A DNA stretch of 64,000 nt from Sphingomonas cremea. GTDB lineage: Bacteria > Pseudomonadota > Alphaproteobacteria > Sphingomonadales > Sphingomonadaceae. The stretch covers positions 434,001-498,000 of the forward strand of contig NZ_JAKFGM010000001.1 of the NCBI RefSeq assembly GCF_021502585.1. Direction: 5' to 3'. Shown here in pieces: positions 29,691 to 32,146 of this stretch. The number at the start of each line of letters is the position of its first letter. Position 1 is the first letter of the stretch. Below the pieces are notes generated by a model, which was given only the letters and a program-made list of their open reading frames with translations, ran no database searches and was not told where the DNA came from. The position numbers and the translations under genes are program-made.

Positions 29691-30752
29691 GTGCCGCGTA
29701 CCCCGATTCTGCCGATCCTGTCGTACTGCCTAGTTTTCGCAGCAACCACCGCAACCGCCCAACCCGGCTCGAATGTCTTCACGCCACCGGGCACCGCCAA
29801 GCCTGTCTGGGTGCAACCCGGAACGCCGGGTAGTCCGATCAACGGAGCGGTGTTCCATGCCCAGGTGCTGCTGAGCTCAGCCGGCTTTTCGTCAGGCGTG
29901 ATCGACGGGAAAGACGGCATGTCGTTCAAGGCGGCGGTGCGCGGGTTCCAGCAGTCGCGCGGCCTGCCGGCGACAGGAAAACTCGACATCGCGACCCGCC
30001 GAGCGCTGCTCGATCGCAACCGGCCTTCTACCGTCAATGTGAAGCTCGGCCGCGCCGACATCGGCGGCAATTATGTTTATCCCTTTCCGAAGAAAGCCGA
30101 GGGGCAGGCCAAGCTGAAGTGGGCCGGATACCGAAACATGCTTGAAGAGGTTGCCGAGCGGTATCACACGACCCCCGACACGATCGTCGCGCTCAATGGG
30201 CCAACGGCGTTGATCGGCATCGGGCAGAACTTGCGCTTGCCCAACGTATTGCCAGCCAGCACCGACTACCAGGGCTCACCGCTCAAGCCTGAACATCGCG
30301 CCTGGTTCGTGAAACTCAATATCGACGCCAACGAGCCTCAGGGCGATCATGTCGTCATCGACAAGTCGGAAGGCTTGCTCAAGGTGATCGATGACGGCGA
30401 CCGGCTGGTCGCTCAATTTCCGGTGACGACGGGTTCGCAGCATGACCCGCTGCCGCTCGGCAACTGGAAGGTCTCGACCTACGCCTTTTTGCCGCCGTTC
30501 CACTACCAGCCGGACCTGTTCTGGGATGTCGACGACAGCAAGGACGAGAAGATGCTCCCGCCTGGACCGAACGGGTTGGTCGGCGTTGCCTGGCTCGACC
30601 TCACCAAAGACCATTACGGCATTCATGGCACGCCCGAACCGCAAACGATCGGCCGGACCGAAAGTCACGGTTGTATTCGCATGACCAATTGGGACGTGCT
30701 CAGGCTTTCGCGGATGCTGAAGCCTGGATTCAAGGCCGAGTTCCGGGCCTGA
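29691..30752 (+). CDS. L,D-transpeptidase with peptidoglycan-binding domain
   Basis: Exported YkuD-type L,D-transpeptidase forming 3-3 peptidoglycan crosslinks or attaching proteins. GTG 29691 has AAGGAG 7 nt upstream and gives 353 aa starting with a proper signal peptide (MPRTPILPILSYCLVFAATT). Domains: a PG_binding_1 motif (about 52-105, AQVLLSSAGFSSGVIDGKDG), a LysM-like stretch (about 150-185, YHTTPDTIVALNG), and the YkuD domain (about 210-350) with the catalytic HGTPEP...SHGCIRMTNWD. An earlier GTG at 29655 lacks a signal peptide start. The stop overlaps the M23 peptidase start (TGATG). Confidence 0.92.
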   Translation: MPRTPILPILSYCLVFAATTATAQPGSNVFTPPGTAKPVWVQPGTPGSPINGAVFHAQVLLSSAGFSSGVIDGKDGMSFKAAVRGFQQSRGLPATGKLDIATRRALLDRNRPSTVNVKLGRADIGGNYVYPFPKKAEGQAKLKWAGYRNMLEEVAERYHTTPDTIVALNGPTALIGIGQNLRLPNVLPASTDYQGSPLKPEHRAWFVKLNIDANEPQGDHVVIDKSEGLLKVIDDGDRLVAQFPVTTGSQHDPLPLGNWKVSTYAFLPPFHYQPDLFWDVDDSKDEKMLPPGPNGLVGVAWLDLTKDHYGIHGTPEPQTIGRTESHGCIRMTNWDVLRLSRMLKPGFKAEFRA

Positions 30753-31390
30753 TGGATACGGTCGTCACCAAAATCGGCTGGACTGTGGTGATTGCCGTAT
30801 TGATCGGCGCTTTTTCCATTTTCGCCTATAATATCGGCTATGGTTCCGGTCGTGGCGACGTGACGGTGGCCGGTGGAAAGCAGCTGTTCGACCCAAAGGG
30901 CGGACCACCGGTCATGGTTGCGGAGGGCGTTGTCGTCGGGCCCGCCGGCCTCGCCATTCCAGTTGTGGGCGTGAAGGCGGACCAGTTGGTCGATACCTAC
31001 ACGCAGGCGCGCGCCGGTGGGCAACGGACCCATGATGCGATCGACATCATGGCGCCGACCGGCCAGCCGGTGATTGCCGCCGCACCCGGCCGGGTCGAAA
31101 AACTGTTTTTCAGCGAGGGCGGCGGCGGGATCTCCGTCTACGTCCGGTCCGACGATGGGCGCTGGAGCTATTATTATGCCCATTTGAGCGCCTATGCGCC
31201 GGGGCTGCATGAGAACCAGCTCCTGCAGCGCGGCGCGCCGGTGGGCTATGTCGGCGCGACCGGTAATGCCAATCCGGCCGGTCCTCATCTCCATTTTGCT
31301 GTCAACCGCATGAACCCGGGGGAGAAATGGTGGCAGGGGACGCCGATCAATCCTTATCCGCTGCTTGCCGGAAAGCCAGTCACGCGATGA
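30752..31390 (+). CDS. Membrane-anchored M23 (LytM) peptidase
   Basis: A 212-aa protein with an N-terminal membrane helix (about residues 9-30) and a C-terminal M23 domain (about 95-205). Zinc ligands are expected in THDAIDIMAP (H...D) and GPHLHFAV (second H of HLH), with the catalytic His in YYYAHLS, so it appears active. It would cut peptidoglycan peptide bridges in the periplasm or regulate an amidase. It is translationally coupled to the L,D-transpeptidase, giving a two-gene wall-remodelling operon. The frame extending back to 30671 lies within the previous gene and was rejected. Confidence 0.9.
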   Translation: MDTVVTKIGWTVVIAVLIGAFSIFAYNIGYGSGRGDVTVAGGKQLFDPKGGPPVMVAEGVVVGPAGLAIPVVGVKADQLVDTYTQARAGGQRTHDAIDIMAPTGQPVIAAAPGRVEKLFFSEGGGGISVYVRSDDGRWSYYYAHLSAYAPGLHENQLLQRGAPVGYVGATGNANPAGPHLHFAVNRMNPGEKWWQGTPINPYPLLAGKPVTR

Positions 31391-31397
31391 CTAAGGT

Positions 31398-31422
31398 CGT
31401 TTCAGATCATTGATCTGAAACG
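31398..31422 (+). repeat. 11-bp palindromic hairpin after M23 gene
   Basis: Perfect inverted repeat, 31398-31408 (CGTTTCAGATC) against 31412-31422, with a 3-nt ATT loop. It starts 8 nt after the M23 stop. There is no U-tract behind it, so it may be a mobile palindromic element, an operator, or part of the larger structured region that follows. Confidence 0.6.
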
Positions 31423-31559
31423 TGAATCTTGGTCACCACAAGAGATGAAAGCCTGATTCACGCCATGGTGGGCAGCAAAGGCTTCCCACCACGGCGATCA
31501 GGCTTTATGGGCGCCGACTTGTTTGGGCGGCTTGCCGCCCACGGCTCTTTTTCATCTCT
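31421..31559 (+). ncRNA. Candidate structured RNA or attenuator upstream of efp
   Basis: The 192-bp gap before efp can fold into: P1, 10 bp (31441-31450 with 31550-31559); P2a, 7 bp (31451-31457 with 31497-31503); P2b, 11 positions with one mismatch (31462-31472 with 31485-31495); and P3, 7 bp (31525-31531 with 31534-31540) extended by GCCG/CGGC (31513-31516, 31542-31545) and followed by TCTTTTT. P3 looks like an intrinsic terminator. CGTGAATC (31421-31428) can also pair perfectly with GATTCACG (31455-31462), which would compete with P2. The family is not one I recognise. Confidence 0.45.
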
Positions 31560-31582
31560 CAGGCATATAGGCGGATCACCTA

Positions 31583-32146
31583 ATGAAGATCAGCGGCGTG
31601 GACATTCGTCCCGGTAACATCATCGAATATGAAGGCGGCATCTGGCGCGCCGTGAAAATCCAGCACACCCAGCCCGGTAAGGGCGGTGCCTATATGCAGG
31701 TCGAGCTGAAGAACCTTATCGACGGCCGCAAGAATAATGTGCGGTTTCGCTCGGCCGAAACGGTCGAGCGCGTCCGCCTCGACACCAAGGATTTCCAGTT
31801 TCTGTTCGCCGACGGCGACATGCTGACGTTCATGGACAAGGAAAGCTACGAGCAGATCAGCCTGCCGCGCGACCTGCTCGGTGATGCCGCCGCCTTCCTC
31901 CAGGATGGCATGGACGTGGTGATGGAGCTTCATGAGGAGCGGCCGATTTCGGTCCAGCTGCCCGACACGATCGAAGCGACGATCGTCGAGGCGGACGCCG
32001 TGGTGAAGGGCCAGACAGCCAGCTCAAGCTACAAGCCCGCGATGCTCGACAATGGCGTTCGCGTCATGGTCCCGCCGCATATCAGCGCGGGCACCAAGAT
32101 CGTCGTCGACGTCTATGAACAGACCTACGTCCGGCGTGCCGATTAA
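31583..32146 (+). CDS. efp: Elongation factor P
   Basis: Relieves ribosome stalling at polyproline stretches. The 187-aa chain has the three beta-barrel layout: a KOW-like domain I with loop PGKGG (Lys-33, the position modified in other bacteria), domain II ([21 protein letters not shown]), and domain III ([14 protein letters not shown]...[12 protein letters not shown]). No modification enzyme (EpmA/B, EarP) lies nearby. The stop overlaps the suhB start (TAATG at 32144-32148). Confidence 0.97.

Follow-up and report, generated by a model that had tools for sequence, protein, structure and literature searches.

A probable decayed mobile palindromic element of the CIR kind upstream of efp in Sphingomonas cremea

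Features of the efp locus

The window, a 64,000-nt stretch of the Sphingomonas cremea genome, carries a strongly structured region between a gene for a putative M23-type peptidase and efp (Table 1). An earlier note, made from the sequence alone, had singled out the segment 31398-31559 for its inverted repeats, all of which are present. A perfect 11-bp inverted repeat pairs 31398-31408 with 31412-31422, CGTGAATC (31421-31428) is complementary to GATTCACG (31455-31462), and helix P1 is a 10-bp match of AGAGATGAAA (31441-31450) with TTTCATCTCT (31550-31559). Hairpin P2 spans approximately 31449-31506, and hairpin P3 consists of TGGGCGGCTTGCCGCCCA (31524-31541) followed by CGGCTCTTTTT. This structure is far beyond chance: the 162 nt fold with an energy of -81.1 kcal/mol, compared with -48.0 ± 3.8 kcal/mol for shuffled sequences (z = -8.7; 0/200 shuffles as stable), and the segment contains four exact 10-nt inverted pairs where composition shuffles lead one to expect 0.012. 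The repeats are real, but the segment is a composite of two units of different origin.

An Rfam search, which the note had proposed, returned no family above the gathering threshold for the segment or for 12 relative loci, apart from tRNA in the relatives, and at E values up to 5 only chance microRNA matches were added. Collections of plasmids and phages contained no match to the element described below.

Table 1. Coordinates of the features between the upstream peptidase gene and efp (window positions)
Feature	Position	Strand	Evidence
Upstream M23-type peptidase gene (putative); stop codon abuts the element	30671..31390	+	weak matches to M23-type peptidoglycan hydrolases
Whole inserted element (probable two-arm palindromic CIR-like repeat, degenerate copy)	31391..31507	+	covariance model R1 matches 31386-31508, 92.7 bits; missing here in 29 congener loci
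Arm H1, inverted	31391..31434	-	alignment A1
GANTC site, H1 bulge motif	31424..31428	-	
Inter-arm linker	31435..31448		alignment A1; arm motifs 22-25 nt apart in 43/43 relatives
Arm H2, AAGCCTGAT-TCA-CG ... CG-ATCAGGCTT with inner stem-loop; TCA bulge at 31458-31460	31449..31506	+	exact pattern match; covariation on A1
GANTC site, H2 bulge motif	31455..31459	+	
Native terminator-like hairpin P3 and T-run, outside the element	31512..31552	+	terminator scan; recurrence in congeners
efp, elongation factor P	31583..32146	+	TIGR00038, 223.6 bits, above cut-off

Comparison with congener efp loci

Examination of 29 congener loci showed the structure upstream of P3 to be missing before efp in all of them. 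For those congeners whose upstream stop codon could be located, the distance from it to efp is mostly 34-85 nt, as opposed to 195 nt in the window. The window's final ~75 nt ahead of efp, which contain P3 and CGGCTCTTTTTCATCTCTC, are a close match to the leader of one congener (L021). Taken together, the lack of structure in congeners, their shorter gaps and the L021 leader match indicate that 31391-31507 is an insertion and that 31508-31582 is the native efp leader. An outlier among the congeners, L036, has a gap of 134 nt that contains a palindromic repeat of another kind, CCCTGAGCTTGTTGAAGGGC ... GGGCTTCGACAGGCTCAG, which implies that repeats have entered this gap more than once.

P3 belongs to the native part. 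GCTCTTT after a GC-rich stretch, soon past the stop of the upstream gene, recurs before efp at 23 of the 29 congener loci. When 31508-31582 is compared with loci L017-L045, the apical part of the GCTCTTT hairpin proves very variable. With a GC-rich stem followed by a T-run, P3 has the make-up of an intrinsic terminator, as far as sequence can tell, and is best read as an older feature of the locus, separate from the element, that would terminate transcription of the upstream M23-type gene; an attenuating role before efp is conceivable and less favoured. The note's description of the stem as terminator-like is supported.

P1 bridges the two units, pairing the linker of the element with the native leader. 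One could suppose that the element, once inserted, was co-opted in this species alone, with P1 tying it to the leader and modulating P3, and the exact 10-bp linker-leader complementarity speaks for this, since only 0.012 such pairs are expected by chance in the whole segment. However, the pairing is confined to one genome, beyond the reach of covariation, and was spotted after the fact, and L021, a congener lacking the element, already has the leader half of P1. We consider co-option improbable; most simply, P1, which is not conserved, is a coincidence, though an unlikely one.

Anatomy and spread of the element family

Both BLAST and model R1 find a single copy of the segment in its own genome. 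The genome-wide BLAST that the note had recommended therefore detects just one copy and would mislead, as the repeats show in relatives. At least nine copies of the first ~110 nt, at ~75% identity, are found by BLAST in G007, a genome of another genus of the same family. A search of 200 family genomes for the pattern GCCTGATTCACG-N8-38-CGATCAGGC found it in 12; two of these hold 31 and 34 copies, and the reversed control gave zero matches. The same pattern is present in at least 117 stretches of a genome collection, from Sphingomonas, Sphingobium, Brevundimonas and other alphaproteobacteria; a few matches, for example in Mesosutterella and Rhizobium, look like chance.

The element is ~117 nt long, with CTAG-like ends, and its two palindromic arms lie on opposite strands and are joined by an AT-rich linker. 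Many copies are doublets, in which the inverted arm H1 is followed by the AT-rich linker and arm H2; all 43 distinct doublets keep a distance of 22-25 nt between their TGATTCACG motifs. Across 34 aligned doublets, including the window copy, 96.6% of cells are paired, and double-sided changes affect 22 of 38 base pairs, a level reached in 0/500 shuffles. The covariation score is 0.258, compared with 0.103 in shuffles (0/500) and at most 0.063 in slid controls; the search pattern itself accounts for part of the invariance of the outer stems, while the inner stems are free of that selection. This covariation is strong and is found among dispersed copies. Relatives adjoin many unrelated genes, and 12 of 75 hairpins lie inside long ORFs, as compared with 83% of random positions, from which it follows that the hairpins avoid coding sequence.

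Two variant arrangements were also seen. In Sphingomonas colocasiae (L140, 7192-7454), four H2-type arms stand in tandem with a 69-bp period. In the Caulobacteraceae MAG RH-23may17-1303 (L096, L102, L114, L129, L139 and L148), a minimal 34-nt arm, GCCTGATTCACGGTTCGATTCGAACCGATCAGGC and variants, is multi-copy; its inner stem is very short, and the bulge is retained.

These data bear directly on the principal suggestion of the note, that the segment resembles an attenuator or riboswitch of efp-suhB built from mutually exclusive helices and a P3 terminator. A very stable fold, a terminator-like hairpin before efp and a 10-bp P1 joining element and leader are what such a switch would offer. Nevertheless, the structure is absent at 29/29 congener loci, its relatives stand beside unrelated genes, and it matches nothing in Rfam. 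The competing 8-nt helix of the proposed switch is the TGATTCACG motif common to both inverted arms, read on opposite strands. We regard an efp switch as very unlikely.

Decay of the window copy

In alignment A1 the 5' half of the outer H1 stem reads CTAAGGTCG in the window, where relatives have CTAGACCTTGATCG, bases having been lost. The GANTC of the H1 loop, present as GAATC in many relatives, is also gone from the window copy, which retains two GANTC sites, at 31424 and 31455, neither in a loop. The window copy is degenerate, a worn-down fossil of the element.

Mobility

Presence and absence at two sites run in opposite directions in the window and in the congener genome G134. At efp (L020), G134 has no element, but it carries several elsewhere, one of which (L269) falls between the orthologues of window 19895 and 19909, just before tRNA-Asp (19960) and where the preceding gene has its stop codon; the corresponding window site is empty. 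As G134 is empty at efp and filled where the window is empty, the element moves. A mobile palindromic element had been listed in the note as an alternative, and the dispersed relatives together with these two sites bear it out. In both cases the insertion point is at a stop codon or immediately past it, and no target-site duplication was established at the sites compared.

No mobilising enzyme was found among Y1_Tnp profile matches or among genes between separated arms. In the latter position, where an autonomous version might carry its enzyme, L163, L243 and L085 hold ordinary genes and no transposase. In its paired inverted palindromes with a bulge, and in the tetranucleotide that edges the stem, the element does resemble REP doublets, which raises the question of whether it is a REPIN belonging to a REP-associated tyrosine transposase (RAYT) system. 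Against this, Y1_Tnp is lacking in the copy-rich genomes G007, G228, G174, G725, G134, G102, G278 and G552, no arm or model match was found near Y1_Tnp genes, and the element is absent from G677, which has four Y1_Tnp matches. A RAYT origin seems highly improbable to us, and RAYT as the mobiliser is not supported, no cognate Y1_Tnp flanked by the palindromes having been found.

Caulobacter-like copies

Counting both strands, model R1 also has 22 and 12 matches in two genomes from one Caulobacteraceae genus, which we infer to be Caulobacter, from which the CIR repeats (CIR1-CIR4) were reportedly described by Chen and Shapiro in 2003. These Caulobacter-like copies read CTAGAGCCCTTTAGCTTTAGATGGAATCATCTAAAG...GGGCTCTAA, linker, then TTAGAGCCTGTTTATCTGG...CCAGACAGGCTCTAG, an arm-linker-arm order that corresponds to the CIR plan. 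Of the 40 arms in this set, 38 have more unpaired bases (a net surplus of mostly 3-4) on the strand leading out from the linker than on its partner, and none has the surplus on the opposite strand. The TCA bulge of sphingomonad arms is on the same outgoing strand, though in those arms the search pattern fixed it. In Caulobacteraceae, where a pattern search with a wider gap range covered 20 genomes, a spacing of 35 nt is common. GANTC occurs 19 times in the Caulobacter-like copies versus 7.5 in shuffles.

Interpretation

Very probably, 31391-31507 is what remains of a CIR-type mobile palindromic element, non-autonomous and now decayed, that landed past the stop codon of the M23-type peptidase gene, ahead of the native efp leader. 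The mobile-element reading is based on the two-arm anatomy, the covariation, the mostly intergenic placement and the presence and absence at two sites. A stand-alone small RNA gene, also raised in the note and suggested by the stable structure and terminator-like 3' end, is hardly credible given that the region has no sigma-70-type promoter match, the structure is not conserved at the locus and the copies are dispersed. With the segment read as an inserted element, any effect on efp would be incidental.

As to mechanism, an enzyme acting in trans may have moved the element, possibly by recognising the folded arms with their 3-4-nt bulge on the strand leading out from the linker. A strand-specific bulge is hard to explain by double-stranded recognition, which would point to recognition of folded single strands. 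More broadly, we tentatively propose, as a rather doubtful possibility when all its parts are taken jointly, a CIR-like superfamily spanning Caulobacterales, Sphingomonadales and some other alphaproteobacteria, with an outgoing-strand 3-4-nt bulge in both arms and fixed spacing, and moved by a hitherto undescribed enzyme for which the arms, folded as single strands, would be the recognition signal.

These results remove a false riboswitch candidate and illustrate that a single-copy fossil repeat can mimic a unique structured leader, such that relatives should be searched and not the host genome alone. Strand-specific bulge and fixed arm spacing also constitute a constraint for any model of CIR mobility. 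We found no prior report of the element in sphingomonads or Brevundimonas in the open-licence literature; the sphingomonad/Brevundimonas subfamily is apparently new, as, apparently, is the strand-specific 3-4-nt bulge in nearly every arm.

Comparison with known repeat families

Like the element, REPs and REPINs of RAYT systems are paired, inverted, imperfect palindromes that are mostly extragenic; the element differs in that most copy-rich genomes lack a Y1_Tnp gene and no Y1_Tnp is flanked by its arms. The TA-flanked MITEs Correia/NEMIS, ERIC and RUP (PMC2229807) share with it a small size, dispersal, TA ends and the absence of coding capacity, but each forms one long end-to-end hairpin (PMC2229807), whereas the element folds as two arms and a linker.

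The CIR elements (Caulobacter CcrM-associated intergenic repeats) are intergenic repeats of ~110 bp in Caulobacter and Brucella, with two arms, a linker, GANTC in the terminal loop of one arm and TA termini (PMC2229807, PMC10969869). How they move is not known, and more information has been called for (PMC2229807). The points of likeness are a length of ~110-120 bp, dispersed intergenic placement, two palindromic arms with a linker, GANTC sites and TA at the termini. Two long inverted-repeat arms and a linker are borne out by the 34-doublet alignment and its covariation, and intergenic, multi-copy occurrence by relatives, with tens of copies in some genomes and one copy in the element's own. 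Differences exist, in that sphingomonad and Brevundimonas copies have TGATTCACG/CGATCA arms with a TCA bulge, unlike the TTTAT-type bulges of Caulobacter-like copies, and in that a portion of one arm and the loop GANTC are missing from the window copy. CIR would appear to be the closest known kind, a likening drawn from published descriptions and the plan of CTAGAGCC arms and linker. Repeats of this kind, described from Caulobacter and Brucella, appear to extend with unchanged geometry to Sphingomonadaceae and Brevundimonas.
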